Source of the DNA: an uncultured Alphaproteobacteria bacterium
Lineage (GTDB): Bacteria > Pseudomonadota > Alphaproteobacteria > HIMB59 > GCA-002718135
DNA: 64,000 nt
Reading direction: 5' to 3'
NCBI GenBank assembly: GCA_902518895.1
Contig: CABYHL010000004.1
Location: 1-64,000, forward strand
The position numbers and the translations under genes are program-made. This document shows, piece by piece, positions 44,131-51,071 of this stretch (the first letter of the stretch is position 1; each line of letters opens with the position of its first letter). The notes under the pieces are model-generated. The model was not told the DNA's origin and made no database searches. It was given only the letters and a program-made list of their open reading frames with translations.

Positions 44131-44155
44131 AATATTAGGAAATTATTAATCGAAC

Positions 44156-44172
44156 TTGGACGTACGTTTGAC
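44156..44172 (+). repeat. Segment 0 left arm-like repeat pair (TTGGAC, 11-bp spacing)
   Basis: TTGGAC at 44156 and TTTGAC at 44167 start 11 bp apart. The same pair recurs at 44474 and 44485 with the shared context CTTGGACGTAYGTT. Confidence 0.65.
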
Positions 44173-44282
44173 TTAAAAATATTAAATATATTAACATGTT
44201 GTCAAATTAATATATAAGTAACTAGTCCTGATTTAGATACTCTAATTGCTGGGACAAAAAACAAAACGCTAAAGGAGACTAA

Positions 44283-44471
44283 ATGTTCAATTTTAAATAT
44301 TATTTAGCTAATTCTGTTAAGGATTTTATAAAAAAAAGAGAACAGAAAGAAGGACTTAAAAATATCTTTTTTAAAAAATTAGATAAAAACTTTTTTGAAC
44401 TGTCAAAAGAAGAACAAGTTCAAAGAATAGTTAAAATTTTAGAAAGTCAGGGATTTAAATTAAAAAAATAG
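44283..44471 (+). CDS. 62-residue basic protein of unknown function
   Basis: This small ORF has a good ribosome site (AAAGGAGACTAA) before its ATG. The protein is Lys-rich, begins MFNFKYYLANSVKDFIKKRE and ends LSKEEQVQRIVKILESQGFKLKK. I do not recognise it. It fills the space between the two TTGGAC arm-like pairs and so is the only visible cargo of segment 0. An excisionase-like or regulatory role is possible from size alone but has no motif support. Confidence 0.6.
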   Translation: MFNFKYYLANSVKDFIKKREQKEGLKNIFFKKLDKNFFELSKEEQVQRIVKILESQGFKLKK

Positions 44472-44473
44472 AC

Positions 44474-44490
44474 TTGGACGTATGTTGGAC
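44474..44490 (+). repeat. Segment 0 right arm-like repeat pair (TTGGAC, 11-bp spacing)
   Basis: TTGGAC starts at 44474 and again at 44485, 11 bp apart. The pair lies 25 bp before the first tRNA-Gly remnant and matches the pair at 44156. Confidence 0.7.
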
Positions 44491-44515
44491 ACAAGTCATT
44501 CGTCCGCTTCAAATT

Positions 44516-44563
44516 TGGAGCGGGCGAAGGGATTCGAACCCTCGACTTCAACCTTGGCAAGGT
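44516..44563 (-). repeat. tRNA-Gly 3' remnant 1 (att site)
   Basis: These 48 bp are identical to the tRNA-Gly gene from the CCA end through the T arm and into the anticodon stem-loop (to AAGGT). The D arm and 5' acceptor strand are missing, so it cannot make a tRNA. This is the usual footprint of site-specific integration into a tRNA 3' end. Confidence 0.93.
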
Positions 44564-44641
44564 AGCCAAATAGTAATGATTTGTAATTTCCTTCAAATTA
44601 TGTGAAATAATTTTAAAAAAAGTTTAGTTTTTGTAATCGAA

Positions 44642-44661
44642 GTGTCCCCCATGTGTCCCCC
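44642..44661 (+). repeat. Segment 1 left arm-like repeat pair (GTGTCCCCC)
   Basis: GTGTCCCCC starts at 44642 and again at 44653, exactly 11 bp apart. The pair lies 79 bp inside remnant 1. The C-rich run is striking in such AT-rich DNA. Confidence 0.75.
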
Positions 44662-44756
44662 AATAGAGAGATCTCTGAACTATTGAAGGCAACAATTCTG
44701 AAAGACAACAAAGGGGCATATTCTTATTGTTTTATAATCATACTTTATCCTGATTA

Positions 44757-45584
44757 CTAAATATAATTAAAATACTTCATTAACGGTTGTAAATTATTAT
44801 CTATAATTTGAACCTGTGTGTTGGATAAAATACCTTTCCATTGATTTAATGTTCCAGATCTGAAAAATTTTGAATGTTTAGATGCTTCATCAAAACCATT
44901 TGAAATTTCTTGAAATTGTAAAGTTTTGAAACTAGTATTTTTTATAATTTTATCAATATTTTTTTTATTATTTAAAATATTTTTATTTGTAATTATATTT
45001 ATAAAAGCAATAATTTTAAATATTATGTTATTTGGTTTAATTAATAGATCTTCATATCTAATAAATAAACATGGGACACTTTTGTATTCTAACCAAGATT
45101 TAATATTTAATTCCCAATTAGAAACCAATTCTCTAGCTCCATTTGCATTTGTCATTAGTTGTTTATTAAAAACAACTTGATTTATAGCTTCATCCAAATT
45201 TATTCCCAAAAAGTTACTTAATGATACAACTACATCTCTAGGATCTCTCACAATATAAATAAAACCTGCATTTACAGTTTCATTTGTAAAACTTTTATGC
45301 CTCACACTATGAGTCTTAAAAAAAAAATTATATTTAGTATTTTCATTTAATTTTTTTTGGCATAAAATAATGTTTTTTGACATCCAGTCATAATCTATCA
45401 ATCCTTTTTTTTCATAAATCTTATTTTTAAATGAAGTAAAGTTCATTTTATCTGATAACAATCTAATTTTTGATAAATCTTTTATATTGATAATATTTTT
45501 TTGTTGAAGCGCAGAAAGAATTATTGCTCTAAGCCAAGTATTGCCAGATTTAGGATACGAAGCCAAAAAAATATTTTTAAACAC
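44757..45584 (-). CDS. PAPS-dependent sulfotransferase
   Basis: The 275-residue protein carries the 5'-phosphosulfate loop NIFLASYPKSGNTWLRA at its start, the 3'-phosphate-binding FIYIVRDPRDVVVSLS near residue 110, and a C-terminal FRSGTLNQWKGIL equivalent to the conserved RxGxxGxWK box. It would sulfate a sugar, lipid or small molecule. It is the sole cargo of segment 1, flanked by the GTGTCCC pairs and two tRNA remnants, so it looks horizontally acquired. An acceptor on a surface glycan is plausible given the neighbours. Confidence 0.88.
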   Translation of the reverse strand: MFKNIFLASYPKSGNTWLRAIILSALQQKNIINIKDLSKIRLLSDKMNFTSFKNKIYEKKGLIDYDWMSKNIILCQKKLNENTKYNFFFKTHSVRHKSFTNETVNAGFIYIVRDPRDVVVSLSNFLGINLDEAINQVVFNKQLMTNANGARELVSNWELNIKSWLEYKSVPCLFIRYEDLLIKPNNIIFKIIAFINIITNKNILNNKKNIDKIIKNTSFKTLQFQEISNGFDEASKHSKFFRSGTLNQWKGILSNTQVQIIDNNLQPLMKYFNYI

Positions 45585-45747
45585 TTAAAAATATTTAGGA
45601 AAGTAATTTTAATTTAATATTACAATTTTAAATATTAATTTTTTTTAATAAATATAATTAGTAATTTTAAAAATTTAAATCTGGTAACAAAGTAAGTGAT
45701 AATATTTTTTTGAAAAATTGAGACATTGAATTATTTTGATATATGAA

Positions 45748-45766
45748 GTGTCCCTCATTTGTCCCC
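45748..45766 (+). repeat. Segment 1 right arm-like repeat pair (GTGTCCC)
   Basis: GTGTCCCTC at 45748 and TTGTCCCC at 45759 start 11 bp apart and share the context GAAGTGTCCC with the left pair. It lies 35 bp before remnant 2. Confidence 0.7.
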
Positions 45767-45801
45767 AGTGATTTTAAAATAATATGAAATTGGCAGTTTT
45801 C

Positions 45802-45852
45802 TGGAGCGGGCGAAGGGATTCGAACCCTCGACTTCAACCTTGGCAAGGTTGC
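45802..45852 (-). repeat. tRNA-Gly 3' remnant 2 (att site)
   Basis: The 3' part of tRNA-Gly is repeated here with 51 bp identical to 50997-51047. Beyond that it continues CAAATA, like remnant 1, instead of the real D-arm sequence. ORF 45667..45882 in the track is only a shadow of this copy. Confidence 0.93.
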
Positions 45853-45930
45853 CAAATACATTGTTTGTTTATTATTGACCAAATATTAAGAAAATATTTG
45901 TAATAAATAAATATATATAAATCCGAAGAA

Positions 45931-45947
45931 CTACTTGGGGGCTACTT
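45931..45947 (+). repeat. Segment 2 left arm-like repeat pair (CTACTT)
   Basis: CTACTT starts at 45931 and again at 45942, 11 bp apart, with a G-run between. It lies 78 bp inside remnant 2, nearly the same distance as in segment 1. Confidence 0.7.
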
Positions 45948-46036
45948 AAAAATACTTTTTTCTATATAATATTAAATATTACACTTTTTTATAATTATTT
46001 GATTTGATAGATTTTAATAAATATCAAGGAGGTAAA

Positions 46037-46297
46037 ATGTTACAAATAATTAGTCATGAAGTAAAAAATGTTGATGAGTGGTTATCTTTTAATGATGAAA
46101 GAGTAAAAACTTTCTCAAAGTTTGCTGATAATATTGTAGATTTTGTAGATACCGAAAATTCGAATCACGTTTCAATATGCTTTAATGTTTTAGATGAAGA
46201 AGAAATGGACAAAGTACTTAGTTCAGATGAAGTGAAAAATGAGGCTGAAAAGCATGGTGTTGTTTTTGATACTATGAAAAGATTTATTCAAAAATAA
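46037..46297 (+). CDS. 86-residue protein of unknown function
   Basis: The ORF track starts at a TTG at 46004. The ATG at 46037 is better because it follows a perfect AAGGAGGT ribosome site. The 86-residue product begins MLQIISHEVKNVDEWLSFNDER and is acidic, with FDTMKRFIQK at the end. The pattern (short strand, helix starting VDEW, strand VSICF, helix) could be a dimeric alpha/beta ferredoxin-like barrel, which is a guess from eye. It is the only cargo of segment 2 and appears well translated. Confidence 0.7.
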   Translation: MLQIISHEVKNVDEWLSFNDERVKTFSKFADNIVDFVDTENSNHVSICFNVLDEEEMDKVLSSDEVKNEAEKHGVVFDTMKRFIQK

Positions 46298-46319
46298 ATA
46301 TAAAAAATTAACTTATTGG

Positions 46320-46336
46320 CTACGCAAGGGCTACTT
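46320..46336 (+). repeat. Segment 2 right arm-like repeat pair (CTACTT)
   Basis: CTACGC at 46320 and CTACTT at 46331 start 11 bp apart; the second continues AA like the left pair (GGGCTACTTAA). It lies 45 bp before remnant 3. Confidence 0.7.
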
Positions 46337-46381
46337 AACGATTTCTTCGTCGCTTCAAGTTTTAATATTCGGGAGAATACT

Positions 46382-46432
46382 TGGAGCGGGCGAAGGGATT
46401 CGAACCCTCGACTTCAACCTTGGCAAGGTTGC
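46382..46432 (-). repeat. tRNA-Gly 3' remnant 3 (att site)
   Basis: The third truncated copy shares 51 bp with the intact tRNA-Gly gene, then diverges (CATGTACA). It marks the left end of segment 3, the largest one. Confidence 0.93.
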
Positions 46433-46500
46433 CATGTACAATTGAGATCGGCCTTTTCCTAGAGAAACTATATCATAAAAATTTAATTCTTTTTTTTATT

Positions 46501-46517
46501 GGAGCGTAAGAGGAGCG
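46501..46517 (+). repeat. Segment 3 left arm-like repeat pair (GGAGCG)
   Basis: GGAGCG starts at 46501 and 46512, 11 bp apart, in the context TATTGGAGCGTAAG. The matching pair is at 50956/50967. It lies 68 bp inside remnant 3. Confidence 0.75.
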
Positions 46518-46518
46518 T

Positions 46519-46712
46519 TCACCACAGTTACCACAGTTAAAAAAAATTACTGTGGGTCTATTTTTTCAATGATTACTTGAGTTTTTTAACAGTTCACCAC
46601 AGACCACAGTTCTTTTCGTAAATTAAGGGTAAAAATATACTTTTATGATTTACGTTATTTAATTTTAACAAAAACAGCCGTTGTAACTGTGGTCTGTGGT
46701 TCTTGAACTTTG
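46519..46712. repeat. Intergenic block of inverted and direct CCACAG repeats
   Basis: ACCACAGACCACAGTT (46596-46611) is perfectly inverted at 46685-46700 across 73 bp. A related ACCACAGTTACCACAGTT lies at 46521-46538, partly complementary to TTACTGTGG just after it. Inside the big stem a smaller CGTAAAT/ATTTACG dyad is visible. No coding ORF explains it: the track ORF 46594..46848 on the minus strand overlaps the real gene start. It could be an RNA with nested stems or a cluster of protein-binding sites. Confidence 0.6.
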
Positions 46713-46751
46713 CCAGAACCCTTAACAATGTCGTAGGTTGGTGGTAGGATA
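46713..46751 (+). promoter_or_regulatory. Shared 39-bp upstream element, copy A
   Basis: This 39-bp sequence starts with CCAGAACCCTTAACAAT and ends GGTAGGATA. It is 33/39 identical, without gaps, to 48287-48325. Copy A ends 5 bp before the ATG at 46757; copy B ends 13 bp before the ATG at 48339. TAGGATA may act as a ribosome site or -10-like box; the function is inference. Confidence 0.6.
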
Positions 46752-46756
46752 TTAAA

Positions 46757-47221
46757 ATGTTCAGACTGTTAGTAGTTTTCTTAAGTATTATCTTGTTCGC
46801 TACTAATTTATTTGCAAATAATATTTTCTTCAAAATAAAGGATATCATATTTCAACAAGTTAGTTTTGCTTGTGAAACTCAATACTCATGGTCTCACACT
46901 GGAATGAACCCAAATTCAAGATATAATTTTATAATTAAATTACACAATAAAGAATCAAATAGAATTATTAAATTTGAGGAGATTATTCAAAATGAAAAAG
47001 AGCCAATAGATTATCTTAAAGCTAAATATTTTAAATTCAAACTTATGAATAGCGACGATAATGAATTTTTAATACTAGTTAATGATTTAATTTACTCAAA
47101 AGAAACGTATTTAAAAATTAATAGAATTAATGGAAAATTGTGGGCAAAAGGCGAAGATAAATGGCTTTCTGTTGGTGAATGTAAAAGGGGGGCTTTTAGT
47201 GTATCTAAACAAAAATTTTAG
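46757..47221 (+). CDS. Secreted protein of unknown function
   Basis: The 154-residue protein has a clear signal peptide (FRLLVVFLSIILFATNLFANN). The mature part is lysine- and asparagine-rich with two Cys (SFACETQYSW near residue 39 and SVGECKRGAF near the end) that could pair. I do not recognise it. It is followed 24 bp later by a MORN-repeat protein and carries upstream element A. Confidence 0.7.
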   Translation: MFRLLVVFLSIILFATNLFANNIFFKIKDIIFQQVSFACETQYSWSHTGMNPNSRYNFIIKLHNKESNRIIKFEEIIQNEKEPIDYLKAKYFKFKLMNSDDNEFLILVNDLIYSKETYLKINRINGKLWAKGEDKWLSVGECKRGAFSVSKQKF

Positions 47222-47245
47222 TATGAATTATTGGGTAATAAATAA

Positions 47246-48178
47246 ATGACTAAAAAAAAAGAAAAAATACAAACCAAAAATTGGATTTATTTAGGTGAAG
47301 TAAAGAATGGGAAGCCTCATGGAAAAGGAAAAATGGTCACTGATTACAATGATGGCGCTGGTAAGGATATTTATATTGGAGAATTTAAGAATGGTAAATT
47401 TCACGGAAAAGGTAAATTTGAATTTGAAGCTAGTGGAGAAAAATATGTTGGTATTTGGAAAAATGGTATTGGTATATCTGGCAAGAGTGTTTCGTCTTTA
47501 TCTTTTAATTATGAAGGAGAGTGGGATAAAGAGTACATAGGAGTGCCCAATGGAAAAGGAATAAGAAAATTTTCAGATGGTACAATAGAGGAAGGGGTTT
47601 TTCATTTTGGTAAGTTGATAAGAGGAAAAAAAAGATACAAAGATGGTAGTGAAGAAATTGGGGAATGGAAAATTAGAGATGGGGAAGATGCAATAATATA
47701 TTCGTATTCTTTTTTTATTGATAAGAAAAAGAAACACAAAATCCAGTTTCATGGTGAATTTGTAAATGGCAAGAAAAAAATTTTATTTGGTGAGGGTGTA
47801 AGAATAGAGACTAAAAAATCAAAACCAACTTTGTACCTTATTAGTATTGGTAGGTTTAAGAATGGCAAAATAGAAGGTGACGGCAGAAAGATACAATATA
47901 AAGATTTGCAATTAAAAAAACCGATTTGGTTTTATAATGGTAAATTTAAAAATAATATAGAAAATGGTGAAGGAACTTCAATTCAAACACCTTTTAATCA
48001 ACTAGATAAATTAAAAATGAAAGATGGAAAAATAGTAAAAATAAAAACTTTCAGATTAAATGAAGAACAAATTAAAGAATTTTATGAAGAATACTATGAT
48101 CAGGCTATAAATCTTCTTAGCTATGAAAAATATAAATATAATCAATTACCGAAGGAATTAAGAAAATTGATTAATTAA
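47246..48178 (+). CDS. Cytoplasmic MORN-repeat protein
   Basis: The 310-residue protein has no signal peptide. It consists largely of MORN repeats: YLGEVKNGKPHGKGKM, YIGEFKNGKFHGKGKF, YEGEWDKEYIGVPNGKGI, then weaker copies (FHGEFVNGKKKILFGEGV, FYNGKFKNNIENGEGT). MORN repeats form a beta-strand sheet and usually mediate lipid or protein contacts. No enzymatic domain is visible. It sits in segment 3 between the secreted protein and a larger MORN protein. Confidence 0.85.
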   Translation: MTKKKEKIQTKNWIYLGEVKNGKPHGKGKMVTDYNDGAGKDIYIGEFKNGKFHGKGKFEFEASGEKYVGIWKNGIGISGKSVSSLSFNYEGEWDKEYIGVPNGKGIRKFSDGTIEEGVFHFGKLIRGKKRYKDGSEEIGEWKIRDGEDAIIYSYSFFIDKKKKHKIQFHGEFVNGKKKILFGEGVRIETKKSKPTLYLISIGRFKNGKIEGDGRKIQYKDLQLKKPIWFYNGKFKNNIENGEGTSIQTPFNQLDKLKMKDGKIVKIKTFRLNEEQIKEFYEEYYDQAINLLSYEKYKYNQLPKELRKLIN

Positions 48179-48286
48179 AACAAGATAGCGTTTGCTAAAA
48201 TATACAAGGCTGTAAGTACACAGAAAATCAGTACTAGGTATCTGATAATAAACATAATTTAATATAATAAAAAATAGTTACTATGA

Positions 48287-48325
48287 CCAGAACCCTTAAC
48301 AATCTTCTTAGTTGGTGATAGGATA
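48287..48325 (+). promoter_or_regulatory. Shared 39-bp upstream element, copy B
   Basis: Second copy of the element at 46713-46751 (33/39 identical). It lies directly before the large exported MORN gene. The 108 bp between the previous stop and this copy hold nothing else recognisable. Confidence 0.6.
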
Positions 48326-48338
48326 GATATAATTATTT

Positions 48339-50588
48339 ATGAATTTGAATATTAAAGCTATCAATTTAATTTTCTTGATATTTATATTTATCAGTCTTTT
48401 CAGTATAAAAAATATTATTAATGCTTCAGAATGTAAAATAAATGGTAATGTTGTAGAAACAGATGACACTTGTATAGGTGAAATTAAAAATACAAATTCT
48501 TCTGTTTTTGGAAAATTTGAAAACAAGCAATTGAATGGATTAATAGAAGCAAAATTTGCTAATGATTCTATTTATGTTGGAGGCTCAAAAAATTCTAAAC
48601 TTGAAGGATATGGTTTTAGAAAATATCCAAATGGGGATGAATTTATTGGAGATTTTAAAAATGATATTTTCAGAGAAGGTATACAAAATGAAAACACTGG
48701 TTTTATAAATTATTTTAAATTGGACGAAGAAGGGAAATTTCAAGGCTTTCACGCTATACTATATCCAAATAATGAAAGAATATATATTGGAGAAATAAAG
48801 AATCAACTAATCGATGGAGAGGGTTTTGCCTACAATCTTCTAGACAATGAATTAGGTGATAAAGATAGTTATGAAATAGGAATATTTAAAAACGGAAAGC
48901 TAAAGACTGATTATTCAAAAAGTCTTCCTAAATGCAAATTCGATAAAAATAGCTCTATAGAATCAAATGAAAGATGTTTTGGTGATAAAAAATTTGCAAA
49001 TATCAGAAGTGTAGGACTATTTATAAATAAAAATTTGTCATTAGGCTTTGAGATATTTGATAATGGGTTTTTAAGCTTAGGTCAATTTAAACCTAGACAA
49101 AAGGGCTATAGTTCAGGCCTTCATGGAGTAGGTTCATTTATACAAGCTAATAGAAAACAAATTCAATTTGGTAAGTTTCATTATGGTGATAGACATGGCT
49201 ATACAGTAATTATTGATGAAAGAAGGGGTTATAGTTATTTTGGAGAAATATATAAAAATAGGAAGAACGGTTTTGGTTTTGAGCGTGATAACGAATATCA
49301 CGAATACTTGGGTATCTTTAAAGATGATTATTTAGATGGCTATGGTGAAAAATATTTAATCAAAGAAAACATAAGGTACAAAGGCACGTTTAAAAAAAAT
49401 ATTTTAGATGGTGTTGGAACCTATGAGAATAATGATATTGTTTATTATGGAGAATTTAAAGATAATATCTTTAATGGTTTAGGAAAGTTAACTGATAAAC
49501 AAAAATCAAAGAAGGTTGGTTTTTTTAATAATGGTAATTTTGAAACTAATTATAATTTTTGTGTTTCTAAAGATACGTTAGGTTATAATAAAATTATTTA
49601 TGGAAAAAAAAGTTGTGGATCTCAAAATTTTGATACTGCTTCAATTGATGATTTTTTAAATCAAAAAACGAATTTTTTTAACTACGATAATTGGAATGCT
49701 GAATATTATACCAATCGAAAAAAACCGTATTTTGCTCGAGAAGATATGGAAGAGTGTAAAATTGTAAACAACTTCGTGGATAGTTTTGATAAGTGTTATG
49801 GAACTATAATGGAGGAAGGAAGAGAATTCTCTGGAGTTTTTATTAATGGAAAGAAAAATGGCTTTGGATATTATGTTGTACTTTATGGAGAAGAAGAGGG
49901 AGATAAATTTGAAGGAAATTGGGTTGATGACTTAAAAAATGGTTGGGGTAAATATACAACAGCACAGGGAGCAAATACAATTGCTAAGTATATTGATGGA
50001 ATTTTTCAAACAAATTTTTTTTTATATAATGGTGGTCCGGCTAAATATGAAAATGATCAAATAGTTTTTTTAGATGAAAATGAAGGTTCAAACGAAGAGG
50101 AGATTGATGACTGGTTTGGGTATCTACCATGTGAATTGAAAGACAATATAGTAATAACACTTAAAGAGTGTAAGGTAAAAAAATTAGTTGTTGGTGATAC
50201 TGAATTTACGGGAATTTATTACAATGCTATGAGAAATGGATATGGTGAACTACTAGCTGGTGAGAAAAAAGATACTAAGTATAAAGGCAACTTTGTAGAT
50301 AATAAATTTGAAGGTGATGGGATTTTAATTTATCCCGACAAACAGACTTATATTGGTAATTTTAAAAATAATAACTTTAATGGTCAGGGTGCTATGTATT
50401 ATCCTGATGGAACAACTTATTATGGAAATTTTATTAAAGGATGGCAAACTGGTAAAGGCAAATTAGTTTACAGAAATGGTGATATAGTTGAAGGTGAGTT
50501 CTTAAATGGAAATATAATAGGAAATTTTTACTTTAACGATAAGTTAGCAAAATTAGTTGATGGAGTAATAGTTTTAATCAATGAATAA
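48339..50588 (+). CDS. Large exported MORN-repeat protein
   Basis: The 749-residue protein has an N-terminal signal or anchor (INLIFLIFIFISLFSIKNIINA) followed by many MORN repeats: YVGGSKNSKLEGYGF, YLGIFKDDYLDGYGE, YYGEFKDNIFNGLGK, YIGNFKNNNFNGQGAMYYPDGTTYYGNF. Cys-containing spacers recur about every 100-170 residues in a similar form (CKINGNVVETDDTCIGEI, CKFDKNSSIESNERCFGD, CKIVNNFVDSFDKCYGTI, CELKDNIVITLKECKV). This suggests internal duplication with disulfide-closed loops. It is probably periplasmic or surface-exposed. The 3' end overlaps the integrase remnant ORF. Confidence 0.85.
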   Translation: MNLNIKAINLIFLIFIFISLFSIKNIINASECKINGNVVETDDTCIGEIKNTNSSVFGKFENKQLNGLIEAKFANDSIYVGGSKNSKLEGYGFRKYPNGDEFIGDFKNDIFREGIQNENTGFINYFKLDEEGKFQGFHAILYPNNERIYIGEIKNQLIDGEGFAYNLLDNELGDKDSYEIGIFKNGKLKTDYSKSLPKCKFDKNSSIESNERCFGDKKFANIRSVGLFINKNLSLGFEIFDNGFLSLGQFKPRQKGYSSGLHGVGSFIQANRKQIQFGKFHYGDRHGYTVIIDERRGYSYFGEIYKNRKNGFGFERDNEYHEYLGIFKDDYLDGYGEKYLIKENIRYKGTFKKNILDGVGTYENNDIVYYGEFKDNIFNGLGKLTDKQKSKKVGFFNNGNFETNYNFCVSKDTLGYNKIIYGKKSCGSQNFDTASIDDFLNQKTNFFNYDNWNAEYYTNRKKPYFAREDMEECKIVNNFVDSFDKCYGTIMEEGREFSGVFINGKKNGFGYYVVLYGEEEGDKFEGNWVDDLKNGWGKYTTAQGANTIAKYIDGIFQTNFFLYNGGPAKYENDQIVFLDENEGSNEEEIDDWFGYLPCELKDNIVITLKECKVKKLVVGDTEFTGIYYNAMRNGYGELLAGEKKDTKYKGNFVDNKFEGDGILIYPDKQTYIGNFKNNNFNGQGAMYYPDGTTYYGNFIKGWQTGKGKLVYRNGDIVEGEFLNGNIIGNFYFNDKLAKLVDGVIVLINE

Positions 50589-50649
50589 AACGGGCTAATG
50601 ATAGGCCTTACCACTAACCCGGTCAGCCTATACGCTAATTGAAGCTGTG

Positions 50650-50920
50650 AACAATGATATTCTTCGTTCTTCCACTGCTTTTTCTTTTTATGTTTATCCT
50701 CATTGATGTAACGTTTAAAAAGATCGCCAAGTGTTACTTTGGAAGCTGTTGAATAGTCCGAGTAATCCCCTCGATCTAATTTTGTTTCCATGGACCTAGA
50801 CCACCTTTTGGCTTCGGTTCGAGTCATGAAAGATTTAGTTATTGTCTTTATACCTAATCGCCTTATGCGAACTTGGTAACTAGTTTTGTTTAAGTATTTA
50901 CGCTTTTGAATAGTAGCCAT
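50650..50920 (-). pseudogene. Truncated tyrosine integrase (N-terminal part only)
   Basis: The ORF 50528..50920 begins MATIQKRKYLNKTSYQVRIRRLG, then SFMTRTEAKRWSRSMETKLDRGDYSDYS and TLGDLFKRYINEDKH. This is the N-terminal arm-binding and start of the core-binding region of a phage-type integrase. After about 90-100 residues the similarity stops and the frame ends at 50528. The catalytic domain with its Arg-His-Arg-Tyr set is missing. It begins 77 bp from the tRNA-Gly 3' end and reads away from it, the normal place for an integrase. The left boundary given is where similarity fades by eye. Confidence 0.8.
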
Positions 50921-50955
50921 AATTTCTCACTTTCTAGGAAAAGCTTGGCTCTATT

Positions 50956-50972
50956 GGATCGTAAGTGGAGCG
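50956..50972 (+). repeat. Segment 3 right arm-like repeat pair (GGAGCG)
   Basis: GGATCG at 50956 and GGAGCG at 50967 start 11 bp apart, in the context TATTGGATCGTAAG that mirrors the left pair. It lies 24 bp before the tRNA 3' end. Confidence 0.75.
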
Positions 50973-50996
50973 TTTGAATCTAACCCACTCAATATT

Positions 50997-51071
50997 TGGA
51001 GCGGGCGAAGGGATTCGAACCCTCGACTTCAACCTTGGCAAGGTTGCGCTCTACCCCTGAGCTACGCCCGC
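50997..51071 (-). tRNA. tRNA-Gly (anticodon GCC)
   Basis: On the minus strand the gene reads GCGGGCGTAGCTCAGGGG... and ends CGCCCGCTCCA. The acceptor stem GCGGGCG/CGCCCGC pairs fully. The anticodon arm is CCTTGCCAAGG with anticodon GCC, the T loop is GGTTCGAATCC, and the CCA is encoded. It is the only complete copy; the three others lack the 5' half. It is the integration site of the island on its 3' side. The blh gene starts 53 bp away on the other side. Confidence 0.97.

Follow-up and report, generated by a model that had tools for sequence, protein, structure and literature searches.

Closest described systems

How single genes enter the genomes of streamlined ocean bacteria, which carry little DNA and differ widely in gene content, is an open question. 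The closest known kinds to the locus analyzed here are the cis-mobilizable elements (CIMEs), described together with tandem accretion at one attachment site (PMC5704250), and the additive flexible genomic islands, formulated as a general concept (PMC5217437). The tRNA-Lys island of 'Ca. Methylopumilus' ranges from 330 bp to 42 kb with 1–63 CDS (PMC10872708), and the same paper cites the tycheposons, marine tRNA-targeting cargo elements of 4–200 kb with a tyrosine recombinase. Arrays of one-gene units are also known as integron cassettes and CALIN (PMC11389934).

The present locus belongs to an uncultured alphaproteobacterium of the HIMB59 lineage and lies in a 64,000-nt stretch of contig CABYHL010000004.1 (the window), where two very small units, segments 1 and 2, form part of a tandem array at a tRNA-Gly gene. 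Structurally both resemble CIMEs: each has 51-bp attL/attR-type cores at both ends, one ORF and no integration or transfer genes, and they stand in tandem with integrase-bearing elements. They differ from CIMEs in their small size (0.5–1.3 kb), in carrying just one gene, which is under selection, between arm pairs of their own, and in recurring individually across many species, while no ICE or IME parent was seen for either of them; that units recur singly speaks for separate movement rather than movement in cis with a neighbor. With the additive islands the array shares a streamlined aquatic host, tRNA-end repeats between segments that vary in content and sometimes hold just one gene, and a right flank at tRNA-Gly that is common to the strains while the units differ. 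In contrast to that concept, the present analysis resolves the arm sites, the integrase elements whose ends match and the exchange of individual units among species. The tRNA target, the tyrosine recombinase, the marine planktonic host and the cargo genes are reminiscent of tycheposons; however, segments 1 and 2 are far below the 4–200 kb range and lack an element-encoded tyrosine recombinase, which is present in other units of the same arrays. The likeness to integron cassettes and CALIN lies in the arrays of one-gene units with an enzyme that, as proposed here, is encoded elsewhere, but the present arrays have neither IntI nor attC, and the address would reside in arm repeats of many types as opposed to one platform. 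In a test for phage satellites, the units matched IMG/VR and phage records at nothing but the tRNA core, and two IMG/VR contigs had the core as part of a tRNA-Gly-like sequence running past it.

Organization of the tRNA-Gly array

Segments 1, 2 and 3 of the window array are 1,286, 580 and 4,615 bp long, respectively, and the three cores delimiting them are direct copies of the 3' 51 bp of the tRNA-Gly gene (E 1.8e-19 or better; Table 1). The range considered in an earlier note on this DNA opens just inside the left core, the true unit boundaries being 44516 and 46381. Its description of segments 1 and 2 as holding one gene each and no integrase was borne out: the former encodes a sulfotransferase and the latter an 86-aa ORF with AAGGAGGT just upstream, while tblastn with six integrases as queries detected no credible integrase or integrase remnant in either segment.

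Table 1. Features of the tRNA-Gly array in the window (positions of the forward strand).
Feature	Position	Strand	Evidence or remark
Segment 0, remnant of a further (fourth) unit with a 62-aa ORF, left core missing	44131..44515	.	Sequence reading
Segment 0 arm pairs, TTGGACGTACGTTTGAC and TTGGACGTATGTTGGACA	44156-44172 and 44474-44491		Sequence reading
Segment 1, one-gene cassette (sulfotransferase)	44516..45801	.	Recurs core-to-core in G076, G023, G021
att core (displaced 3' part of tRNA-Gly), segment 1 left end	44516..44566	-	98% over 51 bp
Segment 1 left arm pair TGTCCCCCATGTGTCCCCC, 11-bp period	44643..44661	+	
Decayed tRNA-Ser copy just inside segment 1 left arm (approximate limits)	44665..44757	+	Alignment with intact tRNA-Ser(tga)
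Sulfotransferase cargo gene, 275 aa	44757..45584	-	PF00685, E 3.1e-26
Segment 1 right arm pair TGTCCCTCATTTGTCCCC	45749..45766	+	
Segment 2, one-gene cassette	45802..46381	.	Recurs core-to-core in G010, G025, G081
att core between segments 1 and 2	45802..45852	-	100% over 51 bp
Segment 2 left arm pair ACTACTTGGGGGCTACTT	45930..45947	+	
86-aa cargo gene	46037..46297	+	ORF reading
Segment 2 right arm pair GGCTACGCAAGGGCTACTT	46318..46336	+	
Segment 3, neighboring integrative unit with MORN-repeat cargo	46382..50996	.	
att core between segments 2 and 3	46382..46432	-	100% over 51 bp
Segment 3 left arm pair TGGAGCGTAAGAGGAGCG	46500..46517	+	
Truncated integrase in segment 3, N-terminal arm-binding part, ~93 aa of homology	50528..50920	-	E 1.7e-37 to integrase residues 1-93; tblastn E 4e-26
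Segment 3 right arm pair TGGATCGTAAGTGGAGCG	50955..50972	+	
Intact tRNA-Gly(gcc), integration target	50997..51071	-	ARAGORN

The cargo of both small segments is under purifying selection: the dN/dS of the sulfotransferase gene was 0.12–0.45 between copies where dS was not close to zero, and that of the 86-aa gene 0.13–0.17 against diverged copies. The 86-aa protein matched no Pfam family above threshold, nor did the IMG/VR search yield anything useful for it; its predicted model (pLDDT 65) resembles the ferredoxin-like (dimeric alpha/beta barrel) fold, a low-confidence assignment.

Arm repeats at the unit ends

The search of 102 genomes of the same genus resulted in 40 fetched loci, which were dissected together with the window into 68 units, the choice resting in part on resemblance to segments 1 and 2. 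An arm pair was defined as an 8-bp tandem repeat with a period of exactly 11 bp in which 7 or more positions agree, the layout that tyrosine integrases possessing an N-terminal arm-binding domain are expected to have at their arm-type sites. Such pairs were present at 46 of the 68 left ends and 50 of the 68 right ends, while about one was expected in shuffled sequences and 0–4 were obtained with each of the control periods (8–10 and 12–15 bp). More than 12 arm types were distinguished, matched within a unit and differing between unit types. Among 20 non-redundant units, the left arm agreed with its own right arm at a mean of 7.75 of 8 positions against 6.00 (s.d. 0.21) for the arms of other units, and the own-arm agreement was reached in none of 5,000 permutations.

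The arm pairs seen in the earlier note proved to be real: within the fetched loci of the 102 genomes TGTCCCYCANNTGTCCCC, the pattern of segment 1, and GGCTACNNNNNGGCTACTT, that of segment 2, occurred solely at such unit ends, and their reversed controls were absent from the 102 genomes. The arm sites were more conserved than other non-coding positions, the difference being not significant. In some units the arms were mismatched or lost, and these units are clearly decaying. Weak Pfam matches to Arm-DNA-bind_4 were obtained for one integrase of the genus and two N-terminal integrase fragments.

Recurrence, order and ancestry of the units in relatives

The same architecture was found in nearly all of the 40 fetched loci and in the window. 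Among the matches listed, at least 43 genomes had two or more exact cores on one contig, and the 67 core-to-core intervals had a median of 1,307 bp, with 41 of them at 1.6 kb or less; this spacing count, restricted to exact cores, is the only one free of selection by likeness to segments 1 and 2. The isolate codes of the relatives (AG-...) follow the naming used for the GORG-Tropics single-cell genomes (PMC12416821), and, provided that these relatives are single cells, the arrays did not arise as chimeras of binning.

The same cargo, which according to the earlier note should be sought alone or in a different order in other genomes, was indeed recovered core-to-core, with identities to segment 1 of 99.6% (G076), 97.0% (G023) and 94.9% (G021), and to segment 2 of 97.6% (G010), 96.4% (G025) and 95.3% (G081). 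The ancestry of the units was discordant with that of the flanking chromosome. The G076 copy of segment 1 was aligned over 1,286 of 1,286 bp with identity ending at the cores and with different neighbors on both sides, whereas identity over 6 kb of chromosome on the far side of the tRNA gene was only 86.5%; the flank of the G010 copy of segment 2 also reached only 86.5%. The opposite was observed for G032 and G075, whose flanks were 98.8% identical and whose sulfotransferase units only 71.7%. The order of the units varied as well: segment 1 is followed by segment 2 in the window, as are their sister forms in G010 and G075, the reverse order is present in G081 and G023, a third unit separates the two cassettes in G025, and the segment 2 type stands alone beside the tRNA gene in G024, G043, G059, G090 and G095. 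The presence of the same units in other species and in other orders indicates an apparent one-gene-at-a-time movement. Clean empty sites on the left side were not found because the left flank is highly variable.

Integrases and their ends

Most of the integrases checked in the genus have an own 11-bp arm pair 30–55 nt upstream of the start codon, and these pairs usually differ from one another in sequence. Integrase-bearing elements with ends matching those of integrase-free units were present for two arm types other than those of segments 1 and 2. The first is represented in G016 by an element of 4,979 bp at tRNA-Gly, which encodes a 333-aa integrase (PF00589; L087:8085-9083) and whose right end bears an arm pair of the TGTCGGA type, the arm types differing between its two ends. 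The right 96–98 bp of two one-gene units, in G009 (1,402 bp) and G039 (805 bp), were 97–98% identical to this element, while the interior was unshared. The same sharing of ends was observed for the TGTCACAA arm type between four integrase elements and integrase-free units of 1.2–2 kb. The cargo of the larger integrase elements included type I restriction-modification, another methylase with a helicase and a DndB-like gene. The search for integrases matching the arms of segments 1 or 2 (TGTCCCCC-type and GCTACTT-type), also proposed in the earlier note, produced negative results in 110 genomes of the family and in IMG/VR; the IMG/VR search with these arms beside the tRNA-Gly core gave nothing useful, and the integrase family had one remote match there.

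Integrases adjoining other tRNA genes and a tmRNA gene also had an 11-bp arm pair 30–55 nt before the start codon (L049, L053, L054, L077, L080, L082, L085, L086, L089), and the arm-address rule may extend beyond tRNA-Gly.

Proposed mobilization in trans and its alternatives

We estimate a probability of roughly two in three that segments 1 and 2 are non-autonomous, arm-addressed one-gene integrative cassettes moved by integrases supplied elsewhere. Such a cassette would comprise a tRNA-Gly core as the attachment site, a pair of arm-type integrase-binding repeats per end and one cargo gene, whereby the core would be common to all cassettes at tRNA-Gly and the arm sequence would serve as a private address. 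Another element sharing the arm type would supply a tyrosine integrase that recognizes the two arm pairs and can excise the cassette from, or integrate it into, any tRNA-Gly core; by this action the arrays would be built, reordered and trimmed. The earlier suggestion that these may be gene-sized cassettes moved in trans is supported in part, by the behavior of the units (recurrence, order, discordant identity) and by the ends shared with integrase elements; the recombination in trans itself, cognate integrases for segments 1 and 2 and a vehicle between cells are inferred. If genes do travel as one-gene packets moved by the integrases of other elements, this would account for the gain and loss of single genes at one fixed site, and the matched arm pairs would provide a rule by which the integrase moving a given cassette could be predicted. 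More tentatively, and at somewhat less than even odds, the genus may maintain a decentralized pool with one tRNA-Gly core and more than 12 private arm addresses, each moved in trans by any matching integrase in the cell, which would amount to an integron-like gene exchange without a platform integrase.

CIME-like decay is the main rival, although we consider it unlikely for segments 1 and 2. They would then be dead remnants (classical CIMEs) of larger elements whose integrase had been deleted, incapable of self movement and spread by co-transfer with their neighbors. Such decay is certain for other units of these arrays: some ends are mismatched or broken, and segment 3 together with seven sister units has kept N-terminal integrase fragments of differing length, showing that the integrase loss in the array is real. 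Segments 1 and 2, however, are free of integrase remnants, possess arm pairs at both ends and carry cargo under purifying selection, and each of them has spread apart from its neighbors with boundaries exactly at the cores. No relative showed the segments as products of deletion within a single, continuously homologous large element, which the earlier note regarded as the case against cassettes. In G021 and G088 (L034:4126-13265 and L030:7275-12636) a larger unit holds both cargos side by side without inner att ends and, therefore, looks like a later fusion by deletion and not like a parent of the small units. As judged from the same-genus genome sequences, the cassette reading is favored over plain decay.

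The N-terminal integrase fragments, ~47 to 130 aa long, were located at the same end of several units despite different cargo, which points to repeated, independent truncation of the integrase.

Homologous recombination at the cores comes next and is a still less probable explanation. Here RecA would reshuffle the units between the 51-bp cores or across the flanks, and integrases would be needed for the first insertion only. Identical 51-bp repeats could support some homologous recombination, and the fused composites in G021 and G088 indicate that deletions between units do happen; on the other hand, both breakpoints were placed exactly at the short cores with both neighbors being different, and the match between left and right arms of each unit would not be maintained by homologous recombination.

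A fixed platform enzyme shuffling all tRNA-Gly cores is very improbable. The candidate is a tyrosine recombinase on contig C41 of the same genome (L008:733-1800; open frame of 365 aa, no evident arm-binding domain), the only PF00589 protein found in this genome and present in most genomes of the genus. It is possibly a chromosome-dimer resolvase, and such a platform leaves unexplained both the unit-specific arm pairs and the matched arms of the integrase-bearing elements.

A true integron or CALIN array, which one-gene cassettes with a common recombination core between them and a variable order might suggest, can practically be dismissed, since the cores are tRNA 3' halves and not attC hairpins, arm sites are present at both unit ends, the genes are in either orientation and the integron integrase (TIGR02249) was found in 0 of 102 genomes at E 1e-10; the integron-like behavior anticipated earlier holds as an analogy, but with tRNA-half sites and no single master integrase.

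Cargo genes and the tRNA-Ser locus

The cargo of the one-gene units included a sulfotransferase, an HNH endonuclease, a DUF4268 protein, an MFS transporter, a LexA-like regulator and a DUF805 membrane protein, and many such units carried genes without a known family.

The decayed tRNA-Ser copy in segment 1 was recognized by alignment with the intact tRNA-Ser(tga) of sister cassettes and of the chromosomal tRNA-Ser locus. In the sister cassettes at tRNA-Gly, an intact tRNA-Ser sits between the left arm and the sulfotransferase gene, and in many genomes a homologous sulfotransferase gene (70–76% DNA identity) adjoins the chromosomal tRNA-Ser(tga). It is a reasonable inference from these sequences that the sulfotransferase gene was captured from the chromosomal tRNA-Ser locus.

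At the chromosomal tRNA-Ser locus of G016 (L045:9600-12100) a cassette-type sulfotransferase gene was present with a TGTCCC-type arm pair, flanked by two tRNA-Ser copies and a third, partial one; integration hotspots thus seem to include tRNA-Ser as a second site. A three-gene cassette without an integrase, encoding an alternative oxidase, an ABM-domain protein and a flavodoxin-like protein, was found at L037:9121-10838, with sister units in L029 and L059; its right end is common to the integrase elements of the TGTCACAA arm type.
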